NCBI RefSeq assembly: GCF_000226095.1
Contig: NC_016472.1
Coordinates: 7,626,001 to 7,690,000 of the forward strand
Length of the DNA stretch: 64,000 nucleotides
Source: Thermothelomyces thermophilus ATCC 42464
Taxonomy: Eukaryota > Ascomycota > Sordariomycetes > Sordariales > Chaetomiaceae
Direction of reading: 5' to 3'
Positions 10,406 through 51,879 of this stretch are shown in pieces. A model generated the notes under the pieces. It saw only the letters and a program-made list of their open reading frames with translations. It was not told the origin of the DNA and made no database searches. Numbering within the stretch: the first letter of the stretch is position 1; the number at the start of each line of letters is the position of its first letter. A program made the position numbers and the translations under genes.

Positions 10406-14307
<3,902 letters not shown>

Positions 14308-15664: not shown

Positions 15665-18478
15665 ATGCCGTCCTCTAAGGACCGCGAGGTCGATGTCCTC
15701 GATGATCGCCCGCGCGAGAAAATCCACCGATCCAAGTCCGAGCGCAAGGACAGAGGCCGCGACCGAGACAAGGACAGGGACCGCGAGAGGGAAAAGGAGC
15801 GGAGGAGAGACCGGGACCGCGAAACCGACCGGGACAAGGACTCCTTCTTGTCGTCTTTGTCGTCTTCTCACCGCCACACGTACACCTCGTACCGGACGTC
15901 CAAGTCTCTGAAACTGAGGCCGACCGACAGCGAGACGCACTCTCGATCTCACCGACGACACAAGACGAAGGACATGGACAGGGACGAGCTCGAAGACAGG
16001 TCGGCCGCCTCCCGGTCCATGGTGGACCTGGTGCCGGAGCTGTCGCGGGGTCTGGCCAGCGAGCGGGGGAGCTTGCCGTATCCGTCCTTCAGCAGAGCTC
16101 ACAGCAAGGAGGCGCTGCACAGCAAGGAGGACGTCTCTTCCTCGCCTGGTGCCCGGCGGCGGGACCCGCTCACACCAGACACGACGGACCTCGGCGGCGG
16201 CAGCGAGATGCGGCGGTCCATGTCGGTCGACTCGCCCTTCGCGGCCCGGAAGAGCTCGACGGCACGAAAGGACGCCCGCCAGGACGACCGGCCGCCGTCG
16301 CCACCCGACACAGACGTTTCCGGCCAGAGGAAGAGACCCGAGTCTCCGGTGTCGGGGAAAGAAGGGGAGGCGCCCGAGACGAGGCCGTCATCGAGGGGCT
16401 CGTGGGTGTCGAGGTCCACGTCCAAGCACGAATCTAAATCGAGGGTCTCCAAGACCTCGAGCCAGGCCACCTTTGTCATGCGACCAGCATCTTCGGCCCG
16501 GGCGCCCCGTCGGGAGGACCATCGAGCGCCAAAGTCCGAGGTCACTGATGCTTCTACCGTCGAACCGGGCCCCGCTGCCGCCGCCGCAGCAGCAGCAGCT
16601 CCTCAGCAACGGAACGGACCCGTAGCCCGCCCTGCGCCCACCGAGGCGGGGGATTACTCTCCCGAGTCAGCGATAGACGTCTCCCCGCAGACGCCGACGC
16701 ACACACCTCAGTTCCCACCGCCGCCCATGATTCCCGAAGAGAAGAATCACTACTCGACATCCGACGTTCCTACCCCCTCCGCAACCCCCTTCACTCCCGC
16801 ACCGCCTCCTCCTCCGCCTCCTCCGCCCCCGCCCCCGACCTTCAACCTTCTGGAGGTGCCGCGGGTGGATTATCTCTTACAGAACGGTGGCCTGCCACAT
16901 CCAGTTCCCAAGACATTTCTCTCCGTGCTTCCGCGGCAGAATGGGACGCGGCCTTCCAACCCGCCCCTTCAGGGCGCCGAAACGCTCTTTGCGCCGTTTT
17001 TCAACCTCCTCAACCAGTATCAGACGGTGCTGTCCGGGCACGGTTCCATGGCTGTCGCGACAGGTCACCGGACCGTAGCCCGCCGCCTCCTGGACCGGTT
17101 AGAGAACGTCTTCTCCCGCGACCTCTGTCCGGACGGCTGCCCATGCATCATCTGCGAGCGGTCCGGGCAGCCTCGCAGGGGGCTCGGCTGGGGAGAGGTG
17201 CTCGAGCGCGTCAGCGGGAGGGTGGAGCTGCCGCCGTGGCCGCCGTTCGATTTCACCGTGCTCGGCTCCAAGGCGGTCGAAGAGCTGGCCGACGTCCCGC
17301 CCCGGCCGTCGTCACCGGTCAAGATGGACCCCGACATTGCCGAGGAGTTCCGGGAGCACTACCTCCGCCAGACGAAGCGCGTCCGGGCCGCGGTCGACAA
17401 GTGGATGAGCAGCTGCGAGAAGACGGCGGTGGCGGCGCCGCCGCCGCAGGACGTCGACGACGAGACGCTCGCCTTCGCCATCCTCACCAACCTCGAGCAG
17501 GAAGACCGGCCGTACTTCAACGCCCTCCTCGCGGGCTCGCGGGAGCTGCAGTCCCCCCTCCGCGCCCCGACCCCGGTTCGCCGGCCGCGCAACGACTTCA
17601 TCATCAAGATGGGCCTCTCGCTGCAGCGGCTGTACCGCCTGGCCCAGACCCCGCGCGACGCCGAGACGGCCGTCTACCTCGTCAAGCACCCGGCCGTCCA
17701 CGACCTGCTCCACACCATCTCCGACATTAGCGCCTCCGAGTGGGAGATCCTCACCTCGGGCCGCTTCGACGGCTTCCTCTGGTCGGGCGCCGAGGACGAC
17801 GGCGTCGTGCCCGGCGAGAGCGTCTCGCGCATGGCCACCCCGGCGAGCGGCATCCTCCCGCAGCCGCCGCCATCGTCGGCGTCCCGCATGATGAGTCCCG
17901 CGGCCGCCCCGGGACGGCCCGTGTCGCGCAACGCGCCGGCGACGACAACCGCCTACTGCACCCCGTACTCGCGCGGCCCGACGCCGGCCTCGTTCGTCAG
18001 CGGCGTCTCGGCGGCGTCGTCGTCGACCACCTACCCCTCCCGCTCGGCCGTGACGCACGACGAGGAGGTCGAGGTAGCCACGCTGGCGGAGCTCGAGCGC
18101 GAGATCTTCAACGGCATGGAGGCGCTCGAGGACGCCTTCGAGAAGCTGCACGAGAAGGCCATGGCCGTCCGCGAGGCCCTCCGCCGCCGCGGCGCCGCCC
18201 TCCAGATGAGCCTGCAGCAGCGTCGCCGCGCCGGCGCCGCCGCCGGTGTCGGCATCGACGTCCTCCCCCTCAGCGGCTCCAGCGGCGCCTACGACCGCCC
18301 CGCCTGGGCCGACGAGGAGAGCGTCGACGGCGCAGACAGCGAGTGGGGCGGCGACGACCTCAGCGAGCTCGCCCCGGACGACTCGGCCAGCCAGGTCAGC
18401 AGCAACCGCCTGCGCCGGCCCAAGCGCCGGAGGGAGCGGGCCACCCCGGCGCCCATCGAGGAGGAGGACGAGCAGTGA
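15665..18478 (+). CDS. Large low-complexity protein with a Cys cluster, function unknown
   Basis: Single exon, 937 residues, start ATG at 15665 after a T-rich leader. The N-terminal region is a strongly charged Arg/Asp/Lys/Glu stretch (residues ~15-60), followed by a Ser-rich disordered region and an Ala run near 305. A run of about 13 Pro lies near residues 380-392. The middle (about 395-700) is folded-looking and conserved in style, with VDYLLQNGGLPHPVPKTFL and a Cys cluster CPDGCPCIIC near residue 488, a possible metal site. A helical segment (TLAELEREIFNGMEALEDA) lies near residue 805. The acidic C-terminus ends EEEDEQ. I recognise no catalytic domain. Arg/Asp-rich heads and Pro tracts suggest a nuclear or scaffold role, but this is only inference. 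Confidence 0.85.
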   Translation: MPSSKDREVDVLDDRPREKIHRSKSERKDRGRDRDKDRDREREKERRRDRDRETDRDKDSFLSSLSSSHRHTYTSYRTSKSLKLRPTDSETHSRSHRRHKTKDMDRDELEDRSAASRSMVDLVPELSRGLASERGSLPYPSFSRAHSKEALHSKEDVSSSPGARRRDPLTPDTTDLGGGSEMRRSMSVDSPFAARKSSTARKDARQDDRPPSPPDTDVSGQRKRPESPVSGKEGEAPETRPSSRGSWVSRSTSKHESKSRVSKTSSQATFVMRPASSARAPRREDHRAPKSEVTDASTVEPGPAAAAAAAAAPQQRNGPVARPAPTEAGDYSPESAIDVSPQTPTHTPQFPPPPMIPEEKNHYSTSDVPTPSATPFTPAPPPPPPPPPPPPTFNLLEVPRVDYLLQNGGLPHPVPKTFLSVLPRQNGTRPSNPPLQGAETLFAPFFNLLNQYQTVLSGHGSMAVATGHRTVARRLLDRLENVFSRDLCPDGCPCIICERSGQPRRGLGWGEVLERVSGRVELPPWPPFDFTVLGSKAVEELADVPPRPSSPVKMDPDIAEEFREHYLRQTKRVRAAVDKWMSSCEKTAVAAPPPQDVDDETLAFAILTNLEQEDRPYFNALLAGSRELQSPLRAPTPVRRPRNDFIIKMGLSLQRLYRLAQTPRDAETAVYLVKHPAVHDLLHTISDISASEWEILTSGRFDGFLWSGAEDDGVVPGESVSRMATPASGILPQPPPSSASRMMSPAAAPGRPVSRNAPATTTAYCTPYSRGPTPASFVSGVSAASSSTTYPSRSAVTHDEEVEVATLAELEREIFNGMEALEDAFEKLHEKAMAVREALRRRGAALQMSLQQRRRAGAAAGVGIDVLPLSGSSGAYDRPAWADEESVDGADSEWGGDDLSELAPDDSASQVSSNRLRRPKRRRERATPAPIEEEDEQ

Positions 18479-20436: not shown

Positions 20437-22942
20437 ATGGCGCCATGGAACCGCATTCGGCTCCCCATCTGGATCATTCTTTTCTCTCTCTTCTCCATAA
20501 CAAGCCAGGCTCGCGAGGCCAAGTATGCCTCTCCTCACCAGTCCGCCCCCCTCGCTCCGAGCACGAAGGAAGTCTGACCCCCAAAAAGAGCAGCAGTCCC
20601 CGGGTTGTACACCGGCAACTTTGGTAATTGTTTGGCCGGCGAGAGCGTGCTCGAGGTTACCAGGTTTGACGTCGCCTACGATGCCGGCAATAGGACCCTC
20701 GTCTTGCGCCTCGATGGCACGAGCAGTGTCAAGGAAGAGTCTGTCATGTGTAAGCATCACCGAGGGGGTGGGTGGTTAAGCGCGTGCTGGGGTTCGGGGG
20801 CTGACTGCCGGCAGTGCACCTGTCCATTGACGGATGTAAGGATCAGTTTTCCTTGTTCTCGCGAACACAATCAGGGGGGAGCTGACAGGAACCACCAGAT
20901 GGCGCCAACCGCTTCGTCATGGCCGTCGACCCGTGCAGTTTCAACATCAGCAGGTGAGCTGGAATGCATGCTGTGGCTCCGTCGTCCGGGGAAACCGAGA
21001 CTGATTGTATGCAGCCTCTGCACCCTGAGTGCAAAAAAAACCTTCTCTGCCAGGACGGTGCTCCCGGCTGGTGCTCAGCGCGTCGGAGAGCTGTCCGATT
21101 TTCCCTTTAACCTGCCAGACTATGAGGGCTCGGCAAAGCTACAGATGGTCGCCAAGTCTAACCAGGAAGTGATTGGGTGCGTTCAGGCCTCCATGACGAA
21201 CGGCAGGACGCTGTCCCAGCCCGAGATCGTAGCGCCCGTCCTCGGCGTTTTCACGCTGGTGGCCATCGTCGCCTCCTTCATGACGGCCGCATACGGCGTT
21301 AGCGTCCCGCACATGAGGATGCACCATGCTCATTCTCTCTCGGTCCTGGTCACGTTCGAGACCCTGCAGACAGTCTTCTTCACGGGGGCCCTCTCAGTCC
21401 ACTGGCCGCCCATCTTGATGGCCTGGTGGTCCAACTTCGCCTGGTCCGCCGGCCTCATCTACATCCGGGGCATGGTCCGGTCCATCAACAAGTTTGCCGG
21501 GGTGGACGACAGCGCAACCCGGTTCTTGGGCAGCGGCGAATCCCCGCCCTGGCTCCTTGCGAGATCCTCGGCGGTCGATGGAGCGTCCGGAAGCACGGGC
21601 AAGGGGCGTCCCGCCTACAACTCCAGTTTTCTTCACGACTATACCTGGTCCGGAAGCTTGGCAGCGCCCGGGTTGCCTCTCCCTGGCGGCACCTGGTCAG
21701 GGTTTCCTGCGACGCTCTCAGTTCTCGGCATCCCCGTCGCCGATGCGTTCATGATTGGGCTGATCTGGCTGCTGATAGCCATCGGGCTGGTCGCCTTGGC
21801 TACCGGGGGCTTCAAGACCATGCTCGAGGGGTTAGCGGCCACTGGTAGGATCAAGAAAGACCGGCTGCACTTTTTTCGCAGCCACTGGACCGGCTATCTC
21901 GGACATGCCATGCTGAGGACCCTCGTCGTCGCCTTCTTCATGCTCATGACGCTGGCGATGATGCAGCTGACGATTCGGATGACCGTCGGGCCCGTCGCTG
22001 TTGCCACGGTGGTGTTCATTTTCGCGCTAATCGGACTCATTGGCCTGATTGCGAGCAGTTGCAAAGCTCGAACCCGAGACGGGAGGTTCCAGGTCACGTC
22101 AGACCCAGTGATCTGCTTCCGGAAAAAGACGTCTGGCAAGATCCCCGGTTTGCGGTTTGGGTATGGGTTGGGTCGGGAGAGCACCATCAAAACCCACGCC
22201 CTCGACGTCCAGCCAGTCTTCCGCATCCCTCTCTTCAAGATTCGCCACTCCAATAACGACCCGGACCGGCCCAGCGTGCACTTGGACGAGCGCTTCGTGA
22301 AGAGATTCGGCTGGCTTACGGCGAGATACCGCCGCTCGCGATGGTGGTTCCTGGCATACCATGTCGGTTACCTGTTCTGTCGCGCCGCCTTCTTGGGGGG
22401 CGGATGGAAGACCCCACGCGTCCAGGTCTGCGGCGTTTTGGCAGTCGACGTTGTGAACTTTGTCGTTGCCGCCATCCTGTCACCCTTTGAAGGAGCTCGC
22501 AACACGGTCATGGGCGTCTGGATACTCGGCATCTGCAAGATAGTCACAGGCGGCGTGGCCGCCGCCATGCTCTCAAACCCGGAGATTAAGCGCTCCAAAG
22601 CAGCCGAGCTCGGAATTGTGATAATCGCTGTCCAAGCCCTGGCCGTGGCCGCCCTGCTGGTGCTGATTGTCCTCAGCGCGGCCTCCTCCTTTCTGTCTTT
22701 GATGCGCAACCGTGAGGAAATGGACCCCGACTGGCTCGAGCCGGTGCGGGTGGCCTACTTCACAAAGATGGAGAGGAAGGCCCGAGATGCGCGCTTCGTC
22801 AACGAGACGGAGCCGCCTCCGCCGACGCCACGGTTCTCGGTCCTCTCGATCCGGCGTCGCCCCAAGATCGAGGACGAGGACGAGGACATGAACCCGGCTC
22901 CGTACGGACCGGAACAACAACATCATCATCATCATCAGCAGC

Positions 22943-22978
<36 letters not shown>

Positions 22979-23478
22979 CGACGCCCGACGACAGCTCCGC
23001 GGACGACTCCCGATCGCGTGCCCGCCGCAGCCACGGCAGCTACAGCCGCGCGGGCAGCGTCAGCCCGCGGCTAAGCACGGGCAGCCTCCCGCCGGCAGCC
23101 CGGCCGTACCGCCTGTCGTGGTCGTCGAGGGAGCTTGGGGAGCTGGCGGCGGCGGGGGCGGGACCTAGCAGCCGTCCGGACAGCGTCCTGACCAAGCGGC
23201 TCAGCGGCGTCACCTGCGTGGTGGTCACCGACTGCGACGCGGCGCCATCCAATGCGTCGTGGGTAGAACCGGAGTCGGCCAGGCCGCGGGACAGCACTTG
23301 CAGCTTGGGCACGCGCACGCCGTCGGCCAGTAGGTCGTCGAGCCCGGCCATCGGGAGGTCGCCGAGTCCTGGATTCGGGAGGTCCTCGAGGGAGTTTGTT
23401 GTCGGTGGTAGCTCGGCTCACGTTGACGGGAGGAGACCGCCTACGGCATTGCCTGAAGCCCCAGAGCCGCAAGAGTAA
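20437..23478 (+). CDS. TRP-like (Flc/Pkd2-type) membrane protein with ML-like N-terminal domain
   Basis: Five exons, about 928 residues: 20437-20522, 20589-20749, 20815-20835, 20899-20953, 21015-23478. The ATG at 20437 opens a signal peptide (MAPWNRIRLPIWIILFSLFS). Intron 1 ends AAAAAG, the only acceptor that restores phase (...AREAKAAVPGLYTGNFG). The luminal ML-like domain holds paired Cys (FGNCL, DPCSFN, SLCTLS). About nine hydrophobic helices run from residue ~200 to ~660, matching the fungal TRP family (Flc1-3, S. pombe Pkd2). Those proteins act in ER or plasma-membrane Ca2+ handling, FAD/haem transport and wall integrity. The cytosolic tail is low complexity with His5, Gln and Glu-Gln repeats, then Ser/Arg-rich. 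Exon 3 is only 21 nt. The substrate cannot be told from sequence. Confidence 0.88.
22919..22978 (+). repeat. Coding CAT/CAG/GAG repeat (His-Gln-Glu tract)
   Basis: CAT, CAG and alternating CAGGAG codons encode His5, Gln4 and (Glu-Gln)5 in the TRP-like protein tail. Confidence 0.9.
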
Positions 23479-44476: not shown

Positions 44477-45767
44477 TCAAAAGAAGCTACCGTCCTTGCC
44501 CCTATCCCTAAACAGCCATGTTAGGGCTCGGTGTGTCGGTATGAAAATGAGAGTCCTCCTACTTACCACTCGCGCTTCTCTCCAGCCTTGCTCCACTTCA
44601 CATCATCAATGTCCTTCTCACCACCCTTTTCCCACTTCCTGATTTGTTCCTCAGTGAAACCGGCGGCTCGTAGCCTCTCGGCACCCTGCTGTTTCCATTT
44701 CTGACGGTCACGGTATGCCTCGACCGCCTCGTCCCAGTCGTCCGCCTCGGCCGAGTCTGGTTGGACGTCGGAGGCTGGGTCATAGCCCTCCGCGAATCGG
44801 CTGTCCATTGCCGCGGCGCCCCGGATGGCACCTCTCCCACGTTTCCGAACAGGACTTCTGGGCGGTGGTGCGGGGCCGATGAACTCCTCCAACGGATCGG
44901 ACTCGTCCTCACCGGCTGCCCTGCTTGATTTCGAGGCGCTCGACTGATTATCGTCCTCCTCTCGTAGCCGTCCGTAGTTTCTGCGCCTAGATGACTCGCT
45001 GGAGATAATGATGTCTCTATCCCGGGTGGACTCCTTCCGACGCGATCTCGAGTGGCGCGGCCGGTCGTCCTCAACCCTGCTGCCTAACGGTGACCGGTCG
45101 CGCTGCTTGTGGGCTCTCTGCTGCGGCGAGCATGACCTATCTCGGCGGCGGCGGCGGCCGCCGCCGTCTGGTGTCCGGTCGTCGTGCTTTCTGTGCGACC
45201 GGCGTCCCTCTTCTTCTTCGTCGTCCTGCCGTGTGCCGTGCCTGCCGCGTCGGTGGTCCCGGTCGCGGGACCGGTCTCGGGACTGTTCATCATTCCGTCC
45301 GCCATCCGTTTTCTTCGACCTTCCACGTCGCTCTGCGTCATTGGATCGCTTTCGCCCCGCCAGGATCGACGAGATATCGCCCAGTTGTCGGCGCCTGATA
45401 TCGGAGGCACTGGGATTCAGCCTTCGCCGTTTCCTCTCTTCGGCTTCGGTCAAGTCGTCGAGGCGCGCTTGAGCTTCGGCGGTCTCCTTTGCCAAGAGAG
45501 CGGCGTTATGGCTGGTCGTCTCTTTGATGACGCGCCCCAGGAAGCGAGTGTTTGGCTTTGCCTTGTTCGACGGCCTGTGTGACATGAGCTCCTTGAAGTC
45601 CAATGACCTCCGCGCGCCAAATCCGGAAGTGCTCACTTGGTCGATTTGAAAGCTTCGAGGCCCATTGAGGAGTACTTGATGGCCGCATCGTTCGCTTCTT
45701 TTGCTAGGAGCTCCGCGACCACATCATCGGTCAAGATGGTGTCCGGGTCTAAAAGACGCTTCTCCAT
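44477..45767 (-). CDS. Arg/Ser/Asp-rich nuclear protein, pre-mRNA splicing-associated (38B-like)
   Basis: Three exons: 45637-45767, 44567-45574, 44477-44507; 389 residues. A simple frame starting at 45636 looks complete but misses the real N-terminus. The GTGAGC...CACACAG intron joins MEKRLLDPDTILTDDVVAE...EAFKSTK to PSNKAKPNTRFLGRVIKE, which fits the family. The last exon adds DRGKDGSFF after the conserved KWEKGGEKDIDDVKW and KREW. The centre is rich in Arg-Asp, Arg-Ser and His-Arg dipeptides, typical of SR-like nuclear proteins. The role in splicing is inferred from this and from family annotation, not from a catalytic motif. The 5' side holds a possible leader intron and a small uORF. Confidence 0.8.
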
Positions 45768-46811
45768 AACAGCCACAACGACGCCGTGATGTTCGAAAGA
45801 AGCGCGAGTGCAGATGTAACCTAAAAATGACGTGGTTGTCACAGGAGCGGGCGTTTCCGTCGCGTTAAGAGGCAAACTCACTTTCGACAATTGCAAAGGA
45901 CGGCTGCGAGAGTTCAAGGGTCTCTAATCGCCTAGCTCCACTCGCTAATCGTTCCCGCTGACCCCACGTTAAGATCGCCGTTGAGCACGAGTCTCGAGCA
46001 TGCAGAGCCCGCAACTCCCCGTCTGGGCGAATGATTTTATGTACAGTACTAGTATGTACCCATTTCTGTACAGTTGGTACATGCGCAGTTCGAACCTGTC
46101 CAAATGACCTGGAGGTAGCAGAGCGAAAGCGGCCTTACGCATTGCTAAGAGACACTAACTACTGGAATCGACCTTTTTATCCTCTTTGTCGTGAGGTTTC
46201 AAGGACTCGACCTGCAATCGGCGGCGCCCGATATTGCATTACCAAGGAAACAGTACCGTACATTGTACATACATACATACACGAGCATTATTTGAGCGGA
46301 CCCTTCGAAGAGTTCCTTCTTTGGAGCCCCAACGTCATGGGGTCTTGAGCCCGCGACGACACAGACGTCAATTCTGTGAGCAGCAGCCCTTAGGGCTGGC
46401 ACGAAGGGATACGTGGTATGCAATCCTGTTAATGGCTTTCTTGATGTCCCCGTGTATGTATGTATGTACAATACGCGAATGGAAAGGTACCTACTATGTA
46501 GCAGGTAAGTGGAAAAATGGGACGACGGTGCCCTGCCCCTCCCTCCCTGCATGATCTGTCGGAACGAGAGCACGGGAGCAGTCCCACTGTTAGCAGCCTA
46601 TCCATTCGCGCTGGAGTGTAGCACCGAGAGCACCTACCTCCGCGTGCGGAAGGGACATACCGTCACTCAGCTAGCCCAGCCCCACCAAGTACTGTACCTA
46701 CGCAGCAAGTTAATCACCCGTCCTAGCACCCGAAACCCGTTGCACATCTCCCAATCAATCGCGGCGGCTCTCATCTTGCCGACTCACCTCATCCGCCTCG
46801 TGGCACGCAAG
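45768..46811. other. Divergent region between the splicing-associated and JmjC-SET genes
   Basis: Holds both leaders. On the minus strand a 61-nt intron-like segment (45821-45881) and a ten-codon uORF (45969-46001) precede the splicing-associated gene. On the plus strand an open frame in phase with the JmjC gene begins at 46509, but its translation is not domain-like. ATGTA/TACAT repeats occur at 46055-46080, 46255-46285 and 46450-46475. Confidence 0.5.
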
Positions 46812-49800
46812 ATGGACGCCCTTCAGCTCAAGGTCGATTCCATCAGCGGCGAGGTGAGAGAGATTAGCGTCGCGCTTAAGGGCTATCTCGAACATGGCCT
46901 TGCCTCGGGTCGCAAGGTGCAGCCGCCGAGGACGAAGGCTGGGAGAGACTTGCTGCAACATCTCTTGGGCCGCCTCGACCAGGTGTCTACCGGCTTGAAT
47001 AATGTCCGGGAGCTAGCCACGCCTCATGGTTCGCCCACGCCGTCGTCGGTTCGCGGCTCCGACACGCCTCTATCATCATCATCAGCCTCCCTTCCTCTTT
47101 CCAAGCGGGTCCTCCAGTCTCCAGCAGCACAGGCCGAGCATCCAGACCCGGCCGCCCAGCGCAACATTGGCATCCACTCGGCGGCTCCCGCCCCGGTCCC
47201 GGCTGTGGTGCGGTCCCCAGACACGGAATGCAAATCGGCTTTGGCGCCGCCCATCAAAGAGGCTCCCTCCGCCGCCATCCGCGGGCGCGATCACGGCCTC
47301 CACCCTCAGGCTCCCTACGGGATCACGTTGAGCAACGGCGCCGTCTATCGGAGCCCGGTGCCGTCCGAGCATGATGCATCCCCCCTCTTCGATTGCACTT
47401 ACCAAGACATTCATGTCCTGAACGAGGAGCTCTTCGAGATCTACTCGAGCCATCCAGCTGTCCAGGATGTCGGCTACTTCAAGATCCAAGTTCGGGATCT
47501 CCCACCACTCAATGTGCAGAAGATGGCTCGCCCCGGAAAAGATCATGCGACCTCATTTACCTACAAGGTCGACCGGCTGGGCCTCGTCAAGATCGATACC
47601 GGCAGGCGGTTCAAGTTTTCGTCGCCTAACCTCCCTCTTCCCGTGAGTGCCAAGACGGAATGGTCCCTGGAGGAGCAGAAGGAGCTGTGGAATTCCTCCG
47701 CTGCGAATCCGCCCAAGGGAACTTGGCCATACATCATTGGAAATCCCCTGTTCGAGGATGTTGAGCTGTCTCCCGGCGAGAAGCTACGGCGTAGAGGCCG
47801 CACCAAACTCGAGGGCATCAATACTCAATATGTCTACTTCAACCTCACCGGAAAGACCCTTACGACAATGCACAGGGAAGACGCGCATGTGCGGTCCGAG
47901 AACCTCCTCCGCTCCGGAGAGCACAAATTCTGGTGTTTTATCAAGCCTGCCTCTGCCAAGAAACTCGAAGAGAGGATGGCCATTGAATACCCCGAAATGC
48001 GTCACTGCTCGCAAGCCGTGAGGCACCTCAGCCGATTCATCCCGCCTTCTAAATTGGACGAATGGGGAATCGAATATACTCTCGATTACTGCGTCCCCGG
48101 ACAGGCCATCGTGACAGAGCCGGGGACTTATCATCAGGTCTTGAATCTCGGTCCTAACTACGCCATTGCCATCAACCTCGAATATAACTCATCACCGGAT
48201 ATGCCCCCTGATTACCGGTTTTGTGACCGGAATTGCCCCGATAAGTTTGCTATGTCTGCGGAAGACTTCCAAATCTATGACAAGCCGCCGTCGGAGCTCG
48301 AACGCCGGCTACCTGGCACCCCCGAGACGACGGGGTCGCAAGAAGGACATGCAGCCCCTGCCGCTGGTTGCGTTTCTGGACCACGAGCCGAGCCCGCCGG
48401 CTCGCAGCTCACGCAGTCGGCCACTCCGCCGCCTGAACCTGGCGCGTCGCATACGGGACACACAGCGACAGGACGGGTAGCGGACGTGGTTGTAGAAAGA
48501 GGGGAGGTGTCGACGACATCAGTGGATGCACCAAGGGCCCAAGCTGATGCCCGTCCGGCTGAAAGGAGCACGTCATTCAGATCTGCCGAGCAACCTACCA
48601 ACTCACCCCGAGTGGCCGCCGAGACCGGTGACTTGACACCTCGAACGCAGCCGCAACAGCTCGCTCCGGATGTTGTCGCGAAACCCGTCACGATCGTTCC
48701 GCAGCAACCCCCGTTCGCTACCCATGCCAAGATCCAATCTGTTTCAACCGGCGGAAAGAAGGAGGATTTGCCACCTTTCCGGAAGACCGCGAGAATGATT
48801 AATCCCAACAGGGACCATGACGTGCCGAGTCCGAGACCTTCCAAGAAGCTACGAGTGGAAACACCATCAGCAGCCGTATCGCAAAACTTGCCCGTCAAAA
48901 GCGCCCTTGAGCGCCTTTCCACGCTCCTCAAGGCTCGTGAGGCTGCTTTTGCTGGAAGCCTGACGGCCGATAAACTCGGCGGTAAGCCGTCGTTCGAGCG
49001 CCTCGCGCACTTGGTTCGAGAGTGGAGACGGTATTCCAAGTCAGCGCCGACGGTGTTGGGCAGGTTTGGGCTCGTCAAATCCGTCGAGGAGTCGGCCCAC
49101 GGATATCCGGAACTGCACGTCTTCCTCTCGCGCTTCTTCAAGATGAAGCTGGCACTCTGTGTTGAGTTCGCGGTGACCCGGCCAGGGCACCTTACGCCAC
49201 ACAACTATGTGAACGGGATGCTTCAGTCCCTGGGCTGGGACGAAACGAAGCGGTCGCAGCTTGATGACTGCTTGCGCGAAGGGAAGTGTTGGGCGACGAT
49301 TTGCGGGGAATATGACGGCCTCCTCTGCCTCATTCCGCACGACCTAGACTGCACGGAATTTGCCCTGTTCAAGGGCGAAGTGGCGCGCTTGCATACGGAA
49401 CTGGACAACGAGTTCGTTCGGCGGCTGTGCAGCGTCGGTGCGATCCTGCAGAAATACATCTGGGAATGCTTGGAGCTACCCGAGTTCATCTGGGAGAGCA
49501 TGACGACCACCTACCTCTCGGTCGACCAGATCTCTCCCCTTCTCGCCCCGTTCCGCCTGCTCAAGCAGAATCACTACAATAGCCGGAGCGGGTATCTCTG
49601 GCCTCGGCCGGCCGGCTGGGATTGGGACTGGCCGTCGGACCCCAGCCTAGTCAGACCTGGCGACAAGCTGTGCAGCCTCTGCCCGCGCAAGAATTGCCGC
49701 TGTGCCGAGGTCAAGATTCCGCAGATCCCGCGCATCTCGGACGACACAACAAAGGGACCCGGCATCCGGTCGGTGGGCACGCACAAGGCAAATGATATCC

Positions 49801-50111
49801 TGGGCGAGCTGGTCGGCGAGCTGGTGCCGCCGGGCTCCTGCCCCGGGCACTGGACCATGCCGCTCCGGCGGCCGGATCTGGATGACGAGACGGTGGCGGA
49901 GATCTATCCCGGCCGGATGGGCAACTGGGTGCGCAAGGTCACCCACAGCACGGACCCGTCAGCCGCGTTTAGGGTCATGAAGATATCTGGGCGGTGGAGG
50001 CAGATGCTCGTGGCCGTGAGGGCCATCGGAGACGGCGAGGAGATCACGGCCAAGTACGGGAACGGGTATCTCAAGGATCAGCCTTATTCTCTCGTCGAGG
50101 GGCTGCATTGA
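46812..50111 (+). CDS. JmjC-domain protein with C-terminal SET domain
   Basis: Single exon. I place the start at the ATG at 46812 (MDALQLKVDSI, 1,099 residues), because the 101 in-frame codons upstream have no protein-like pattern. After a Ser/Pro linker, a JmjC fold spans about residues 190-460. The Fe(II) ligands are His354 and Glu356 (TMHREDAH) and His441 (GTYHQVLNLG), with Lys/Tyr-rich strands around (QYVYFNLTGKTL). A disordered stretch (~480-690) and a helical region (~695-945) follow. A Cys cluster (CSLCPRKNCRC, from 954) leads into a SET domain with GPGIRS (982), THSTDP (1044) and EEITAKYGNGYL with Tyr1082. The usual NHSC motif reads THST. JmjC proteins remove and SET proteins add histone methyl groups; both in one chain is unusual. 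Substrates are unknown. Confidence 0.85.
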   Translation: MDALQLKVDSISGEVREISVALKGYLEHGLASGRKVQPPRTKAGRDLLQHLLGRLDQVSTGLNNVRELATPHGSPTPSSVRGSDTPLSSSSASLPLSKRVLQSPAAQAEHPDPAAQRNIGIHSAAPAPVPAVVRSPDTECKSALAPPIKEAPSAAIRGRDHGLHPQAPYGITLSNGAVYRSPVPSEHDASPLFDCTYQDIHVLNEELFEIYSSHPAVQDVGYFKIQVRDLPPLNVQKMARPGKDHATSFTYKVDRLGLVKIDTGRRFKFSSPNLPLPVSAKTEWSLEEQKELWNSSAANPPKGTWPYIIGNPLFEDVELSPGEKLRRRGRTKLEGINTQYVYFNLTGKTLTTMHREDAHVRSENLLRSGEHKFWCFIKPASAKKLEERMAIEYPEMRHCSQAVRHLSRFIPPSKLDEWGIEYTLDYCVPGQAIVTEPGTYHQVLNLGPNYAIAINLEYNSSPDMPPDYRFCDRNCPDKFAMSAEDFQIYDKPPSELERRLPGTPETTGSQEGHAAPAAGCVSGPRAEPAGSQLTQSATPPPEPGASHTGHTATGRVADVVVERGEVSTTSVDAPRAQADARPAERSTSFRSAEQPTNSPRVAAETGDLTPRTQPQQLAPDVVAKPVTIVPQQPPFATHAKIQSVSTGGKKEDLPPFRKTARMINPNRDHDVPSPRPSKKLRVETPSAAVSQNLPVKSALERLSTLLKAREAAFAGSLTADKLGGKPSFERLAHLVREWRRYSKSAPTVLGRFGLVKSVEESAHGYPELHVFLSRFFKMKLALCVEFAVTRPGHLTPHNYVNGMLQSLGWDETKRSQLDDCLREGKCWATICGEYDGLLCLIPHDLDCTEFALFKGEVARLHTELDNEFVRRLCSVGAILQKYIWECLELPEFIWESMTTTYLSVDQISPLLAPFRLLKQNHYNSRSGYLWPRPAGWDWDWPSDPSLVRPGDKLCSLCPRKNCRCAEVKIPQIPRISDDTTKGPGIRSVGTHKANDILGELVGELVPPGSCPGHWTMPLRRPDLDDETVAEIYPGRMGNWVRKVTHSTDPSAAFRVMKISGRWRQMLVAVRAIGDGEEITAKYGNGYLKDQPYSLVEGLH

Positions 50112-50871
50112 ACGGATTTGCGGGCAGAGTACGGTGGGCGTTTAATGTTGGTTTGATTCAAGGATGGAAAAGTAGGCGGCGTTTCTCGCATTGTGGTGTT
50201 ATCTTGTCTCGGGAATCCTGGCTTCTCTGGGAGGGCGTTATTCTGCTCGTCATTGGCGCTCATGGTTTCTGGCTTTCTCAATGTCTCAAAGCCCTGAAAG
50301 CGGCATATAGCCATTCGGCGGGGGGATGGTACAGTATCTGTTTTCTTTTATCTATTTTAGCATTCAAAGCTCGATAATAACAGTATTGATCCTGGAGGGA
50401 CGAGTGGTTCCTGTGCGTTAGGAGGCCTGCTCGGATTGTCTAGCCTTCTGTGCGACACAATGGTGGAGTGCACTCACAGCACTATGCTTACTATATGTGC
50501 TGTGTGTACCTATGCACGTATGTATGTACATGCATACAGTACATACCCTACCATGGCAGGCATGTTGACGACGCCCATCACGTACACAGCAGCTAGGGGC
50601 GCAGATGGGTGAAGTTGGGACGGAGCGCATCGAGTGAGAGAAGGGTTAGGGTTATGCGTTATCGATTATCGCCTTGCTCCCCGCTAACTATCCATATTCG
50701 GCAAATCAACAACAACAAACACAACCACAACTCGAGGGTCGGGATTGAGATCTCGAAAAGAAAGTGGCTCATTACACGAAAACCCCACGCGCTCCCGATA
50801 GGAATTTTTTTTAAAAAGCACAGAGAATACTGACACGGGAGCCCCCGGCATTTTCGTCGTGGAAACTAGCC
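50112..50871. other. Intergenic region between JmjC-SET and sos7
   Basis: The left part is the 3' flank of the JmjC-SET gene, with ATGTA-rich repeats at 50500-50550. A telomere-like AGGGTTAGGGTTA lies at 50642-50654, about 220 bases before the sos7 start. Confidence 0.55.
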
Positions 50872-51879
50872 ATGTCGCGCGCGACATCGTCCGCCAATCC
50901 CGACGCGGATCGCGCCGCCGAGGTCCTCCGCGCCCTCCAAGAGCTCGAGTCCGGCTCCGCCCCCGGCGAGGAATACACCATCCTCAAACTCAGCGAACCC
51001 ATATTGTCGGCGCAGCCGTCAAGCAAGGGAGCGGGCGAGGGCGAGGGAGGGGCGGCCAACCGCAGGTCGGACGTGTCGACCGCGTCGCTCGACAGCGGCA
51101 GCGGCAGCGGCAGCGGCAGCGGCGACAGGGGGCCGACGCCGGCGTCGCTCGAGGCCGACCTGGCGCACTACCGCGAGCTCTTCGCCAAGCTCCGCTTCTC
51201 GTACGTCGAGCAGGTCACCAAGGAGAAGTTCATCCGCGCCATCGTCGGCGACCCGCCGCTGATCGTGACCCCGCACGAGATCGCCGAGCTCGAGGCCGCC
51301 AACGCCCACGCCAAGGCCGCCCTCAAGGCCCGAAAGACCGAGGTCGCCGGCATGGTCGACGACCTCGAGCGCCGCGCCCGCGACCTCGCCCGCCGCTACG
51401 CCGACGTCCGCGCCGGCCGCGACCTGCTGCGCGAGCTGCCCGGCCGGATCGCGGAGCTGGAGGAGCGCGTGCGGGAGCTGCGGGCGAGGCAGCACCACCA
51501 GCAGCACCAGCAGCAGGAGGATGATGATGACGGGGCCCCGGGAGGGGGAAGAATGTCGACGGCGATGATGAACATGCCGCTGGGGAAGACGAGGGAGCTG
51601 GTGGAGCAGCGGAGGCGGGAGCTCGGCGCCGTGGAGCGCGAGCTCGAGGTGCTGGGCGCGCAGGCGCCCCGCAAGAGGAAGGAGATGGAGCGGCTCGGGG
51701 CCGAGGTGGCCGCGCTCGAGAACCGGAGGGCCAACAGCACGGCCGCGGCCAGGGAGGCCAAGAGGAGGAGGGACAACAACGCCCAGGGCGGGGTCGCGGA
51801 CGAGCTGGAGGCGAGGGGCAGGTGGTACAGGGCCTCGGAGGCGGTCTTGCGGCAGGTTCTGGATCTTCCGCAAGCGTGA
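50872..51879 (+). CDS. sos7: Kinetochore protein Sos7-like
   Basis: Single exon, 335 residues. The N-terminal region is short and disordered with a (Gly-Ser)n run. The Sos7 core reads YRELFAKLRFSYVEQVTKEK and FIRAIVGDPPLIVTPHEIAE, the diagnostic part of the family. Two long coiled coils follow (residues ~145-205 and ~235-300), separated by a His/Gln and Asp-rich insert (HHQQHQQQEDDDD). In S. pombe, Sos7 links Mis12-complex and Spc7 functions at the kinetochore. The end, RWYRASEAVLRQVLDLPQA, looks natural. Very high GC in third positions explains a 284-codon antisense frame across it, which I reject. Confidence 0.85.
   Translation: MSRATSSANPDADRAAEVLRALQELESGSAPGEEYTILKLSEPILSAQPSSKGAGEGEGGAANRRSDVSTASLDSGSGSGSGSGDRGPTPASLEADLAHYRELFAKLRFSYVEQVTKEKFIRAIVGDPPLIVTPHEIAELEAANAHAKAALKARKTEVAGMVDDLERRARDLARRYADVRAGRDLLRELPGRIAELEERVRELRARQHHQQHQQQEDDDDGAPGGGRMSTAMMNMPLGKTRELVEQRRRELGAVERELEVLGAQAPRKRKEMERLGAEVAALENRRANSTAAAREAKRRRDNNAQGGVADELEARGRWYRASEAVLRQVLDLPQA

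Follow-up and report, generated by a model that had tools for sequence, protein, structure and literature searches.

A JmjC-SET protein of Thermothelomyces thermophilus with a KDM4-like JmjC domain and a divergent SET domain

Proteins combining JmjC and SET in a single chain are described in PMC2474616 (2008), where they form a family found in filamentous ascomycetes. According to the part of that paper available to us, there is one such gene in N. crassa, one in A. fumigatus and two in M. grisea, and none was found in F. graminearum. The same part states that JmjC-SET proteins share arginine substitutions with the inactive SET3 and that their SET domain is maybe inactive. A SET-JmjC protein of the diatom Phaeodactylum was reported in 2011 (PMC3145265, likewise available in part), its transcript having been confirmed by PCR with data not shown in the paper. 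The authors proposed that this protein may have two activities directed at different residues of the same histone, and they noted the N. crassa JmjC-SET protein alongside it. Neither of the two texts reports an activity of a JmjC-SET protein in the parts available. In the accessible sections of other work, JmjC-SET genes were omitted as they could not be grouped (PMC9692433, 2022), SET and JmjC were treated as two gene families with the fusion absent (PMC6963287), and a 2008 review on fungal histone modification leaves the fusion unmentioned (PMC2442719). Among the literature matches listed, which comprised titles and the beginnings of abstracts, with subscription journals mostly outside their scope, none was seen to study the function of JmjC-SET proteins. 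The architecture has been known since 2008 and the idea of dual activity has likewise been published, as the available parts of these papers document. The initial annotation of the locus studied here had presented the fusion as lacking a characterised precedent; as a claim of novelty this is superseded, since JmjC-SET proteins are published in both PMC2474616 and PMC3145265, each consulted in part.

The window analysed here, a stretch of 64,000 nucleotides (C1:7626001-7690000), belongs to a genome of 38,744,216 bases in 7 contigs. A profile search of this genome carried out exon by exon, with E up to 0.01 and counts that are lower bounds, gave at least 19 SET places and at least 5 JmjC places, and the JmjC-SET locus (Table 1) is the only place common to both lists. 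On these lower-bound lists the genome has one such locus, as the available text of PMC2474616 gives for N. crassa and A. fumigatus, and the window protein resembles that family further in having JmjC and SET in one chain with JmjC N-terminal. It shares with the Phaeodactylum protein the presence of both domains, although there, in a diatom, their order is reversed (PMC3145265, in the portion available). The same family searches in 14 control genomes found SET in one and JmjC in none, and a search for relatives among viral contigs returned 10 pattern matches, none of them related. The window protein is a real, so far uncharacterised member of the known JmjC-SET kind.

Table 1. Features of the JmjC-SET locus, with positions counted in the window
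Feature	Position	Strand	Basis or remark
JmjC-SET gene, 1,099 aa	46812..50111	+	one open frame
JmjC domain, KDM4-like, residues 348-455	47853..48176	+	Pfam, PDB matches, alignment with the KDM4/RPH1-like frame L024
C399-x5-H405	48006..48026	+	aligned with C-x5-H of KDM4; possible zinc site with C471/C475 (48222-48236)
Low-complexity linker, residues 499-698	48306..48905	+	open in frame
Middle region, residues 695-946, unrecognised	48894..49649	+	no Pfam match, no second copy found in the genome
Cys cluster C954/C957/C962/C964, directly before SET	49671..49703	+	possible zinc site
SET domain, residues 981-1083	49752..50060	+	Pfam 1024-1083, ASH1L alignment, the genome's own SET frames

The observation of the JmjC-SET frame is confirmed as real and correctly located. 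It translates into 1,099 residues followed by a stop, with no internal stop, and the JmjC ligands that had been read from it, His354, Glu356 and His441, agree in translation and in position. When its 3,300 bases were shuffled (n = 500), the mean number of stops was 34.9 and the minimum 18; because base shuffles average this many stops, the frame is not a product of chance. The open stretch in this frame begins further upstream, at 46509. A strict scan for fungal-type introns across the gene gave 0 candidates. On the window's + strand the density of distinct strict candidates is 1.22 per kb, and nine long frames including this one range between 0 (three frames) and 3.13 per kb. With 2 of the 8 other long frames likewise free of strict candidates, we count the zero as weak support. 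A looser scan gave two distinct candidates, with donors at 49929 and 50054 and a shared acceptor at 50175, both of which start within the SET domain, end beyond the stop and would remove Y1082. On the simplest reading of the sequence, the locus would be a single exon encoding a single protein. Upstream of the start codon, a possible 5' untranslated intron with a GTAAGT donor lies at 46505-46726 (+). An antisense frame at 48275-49204 (309 aa) is without a Pfam match and was taken as an incidental product of coding sequence rich in GC.

The presence of both domains in one chain, as proposed before, is borne out by the Pfam profiles, which place each above its curated cut-off: JmjC at residues 348-455 (E 7e-17, 62.4 bits against 24) and SET at residues 1024-1083 (E 9.5e-7, 29.6 bits against 22.4). 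Pfam found only these two in the full frame and nothing further up to E 10, and NCBIfam gave no match. The leading PDB matches of the JmjC half are KDM4 enzymes, with 2w2i (2-oxoglutarate oxygenase) at 4e-14 and KDM4D from 8.5e-14. For comparison within the genome we used 22 of its other frames with SET or JmjC (18 SET places among them), and the E-values are valid for this small set. The best match of the JmjC half is L024 at 2.7e-19 and the next is L023 at 5.4e-12; the remaining 9 matches listed have E of at least 0.83, and 11 frames are unlisted. L024 is KDM4/RPH1-like (RPH1 at 5e-47, Pfam JmjN at 1.2e-8), and L023 is KDM5-like (KDM5A at 6.6e-50; PLU-1). The iron ligands of L024 are matched by H354, E356 and H441, and N364 and K372, which we take to be 2-oxoglutarate-site residues, align with it at the 2-oxoglutarate positions. 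The C-x5-H is also present in L024, where C399 and H405 align with it. H441 and C471 lie 30 residues apart, and the same step separates the corresponding His of L024 from the first Cys in its C-x-C. C471 and C475 have three residues between them, against one in the C-x-C of KDM4, and the second Cys falls two residues beyond that of L024.

The JmjC half has the same iron, 2-oxoglutarate and C-x5-H residues as the KDM4/RPH1 enzymes, whereas the whole protein differs from them in having no detected JmjN and in possessing a SET domain. Pfam found no JmjN in it, and a degenerate copy was not apparent when residues 181-300 were aligned locally with the JmjN region of L024 (p 0.192, 500 shuffles). 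As no JmjN was detected here though Pfam finds one in L024, our positive control, it could be that the JmjC half, like the SET half, is altered. The predicted structure of this half, made without an alignment, has a mean pLDDT of 30.7 (residues 176-493), which is too low to use. Judged by its residues, the JmjC domain probably has its chemistry intact within an altered frame, and the eraser half of the protein is probably active. The residue check makes JmjC the half to assay first.

The C-terminal part had been described as a SET-like segment preceded by a Cys cluster, and the motifs GPGIRS, THSTDP and EEITAKYGNGYL as well as C954, C957, C962 and C964 are all present. The nearest PDB match of residues 947-1099 is a Set1-type H3K4 enzyme (8.3e-5), with ASH1L from 6.7e-4, and the ASH1L alignment spans the GxG turn to the last Tyr. 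According to the accessible part of PMC5094779, an active SET domain requires XGXG, a cofactor-site tyrosine, NH and the active-site tyrosines, and MLL5 is without these; Tyr358 of that paper was mapped onto EYxG in the present analysis. In the window protein XGXG is kept (K981-G984), the NH motif reads T1044-H1045, with Asn replaced by Thr and His kept, and the tyrosine of EYxG is replaced by L1000. ELTYDY has lost its first tyrosine to A1080 and keeps the last as Y1082, so that 1 of the 3 active-site tyrosines remains. The position of A1080 is variable, with Phe in the Set2-like frame L005, and we infer that a Thr at the place of the NH Asn might still form a hydrogen bond. For the SET-I tyrosine of the cofactor site the candidate is Y1032: one alignment pairs it with a Tyr of L005, the ASH1L alignment pairs it with a different Tyr, and the stretch is shortened. 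The protein has no post-SET cysteines following the domain, and the 450 bases past the stop, read by eye in three forward frames, contain no cluster of cysteines resembling a post-SET. Of the two opposing activities that had been proposed for this chain, the eraser part agrees with the kept active-site residues of JmjC, but for the writer part the comparison with the available text of PMC5094779 shows two of three active-site tyrosines and the NH Asn changed. From these motifs, catalysis by the SET half appears doubtful, and the positions that decide the activity question are L1000, T1044, H1045 and Y1082.

When the SET half was compared with the 18 other SET places by phmmer, the best match was L005 (8.3e-5), with L016 at 0.026. 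L005 is Set2-like, with Set2-type H3K36 enzymes at the top of its PDB matches (1.4e-66), and L016 is MLL5/SET3-like (KMT2E chain 5ht6, 3.9e-8). Local alignment z-scores (300 shuffles, 5 of the 18 tried) were 13.3 for L005, 9.0 for L004, 8.6 for L006, 5.7 for L016 and 4.9 for L007. The SET half scores nearer the Set2-like domain than the SET3/MLL5-like one in these comparisons, whose alignments are short and weak and do not amount to a tree. Set beside Set2/ASH1-type domains, it keeps GxG, the His of NH and the last Tyr and can be aligned with ASH1L from one end of this range to the other, but it is changed at the EYxG Tyr, the NH Asn and the first ELTYDY Tyr, has no post-SET and has a shorter middle. 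With the inactive SET domains of the SET3/MLL5 type it shares the loss of the EYxG Tyr, which is lost in L016 as well, but not their RR motif or their loss of GxG. L016 has RRSCKPN where the JmjC-SET protein has THSTDPS. The window SET also lacks the SET3-type RR that PMC2474616 reports for the JmjC-SET family, in the part available, as a trait and not as a definition. The case made in print for an inactive SET domain, which relies on these SET3-like arginines, fails for the window protein; its other changes still point that way.

The stretch at about residues 695-945 had been called unrecognised, and it remains so in our searches: Pfam gave no family for residues 690-963 and no second copy of residues 690-946 was found in the genome. 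The single-sequence model places helices in the middle region at a confidence too low to trust, and the mean pLDDT of 34.0 for residues 690-1099, from a prediction without an alignment, is not usable. The stretch around the Cys cluster C954-C964 has no match in Pfam.

The explanation that we regard as the best, and to which we give an even chance, is a chromatin-acting JmjC-SET protein, presumably located in the nucleus, in which a KDM4-type demethylase would be combined with a weak or dead SET domain as a binding platform. The KDM4-type core would most likely act on a histone lysine as a demethylase dependent on Fe(II), 2-oxoglutarate and oxygen, and by analogy with KDM4 its substrate might be H3K9 or H3K36. 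The C-terminal SET domain is probably a weak or dead methyltransferase. As a platform it could position the demethylase on chromatin or hold partners, a role modelled on SET3/MLL5-type SET domains, which are thought to act in this way. We favour the eraser with a platform because the JmjC ligands are kept, L1000, T1044 and A1080 are changed and there is no post-SET; against it stand the kept GxG, H1045 and Y1082 and the absence of the RR of SET3-type dead domains. These same features, with the intact JmjC ligands and a SET domain that aligns with the Set2/ASH1 type from GxG to the last Tyr, would suit a true writer-eraser, in which JmjC and SET would each be catalytic, on one shared lysine or on two adjacent ones, and would swap one mark for another. 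The three changed positions, the missing post-SET and the possibly inactive SET of the family (PMC2474616, part available) make such a protein unlikely, and a demethylase with a degenerate SET domain is likelier. It seems quite unlikely that a mark swap would be performed within this single protein by KDM4-type removal and by the writing of a divergent Set2/ASH1-type SET domain, the two being joined by the unrecognised middle domain.

The lack of JmjN and the changes in SET are compatible with a structural chromatin factor in which both halves are non-catalytic, but all three ligands of the iron and the two 2-oxoglutarate residues, needless in a dead enzyme, are kept, and we consider this reading unlikely. 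Highly improbable is a mis-joined frame or a pair of genes with JmjC and SET on separate transcripts. It draws on the weaker codon signal of the linker, where third-position GC falls to 0.50-0.62 without a stop, but this measure discriminates poorly at the locus, since the 101 codons preceding the start codon reach 0.70-0.72. Two genes are further opposed by the 0 stops in 1,099 codons, by the chance of about residues 499-699 staying open under base shuffling (P 0.0027), by the lack of strict intron candidates in the frame and by the JmjC-SET order also reported in N. crassa (PMC3145265, in the portion available).

Among the window frames sent to Pfam, 7 of 10 matched a family. The upstream neighbour of the JmjC-SET gene, at 44563-45636 (-), has no Pfam match, and a frame of 937 aa at 15665-18478 (+) has none at E 0.01 and no strict intron candidate. 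Downstream of the JmjC-SET gene, 50872-51879 (+) matches the kinetochore protein Sos7 (PF20882, 6.2e-32) and would encode a Sos7-like protein. Pfam matches lying further off in the window are an MFS transporter, an AdoMet-dependent methyltransferase, EOS1 and a class I tRNA synthetase. At 12919-14307 (+) an ATP sulfurylase is joined to an APS-kinase domain by Pfam, an arrangement that is common in fungi. The frame at 20605-23478 (+) matches a TRP-type channel with an ML-like domain in Pfam and contains 9 intron candidates, the highest number among the nine long frames.
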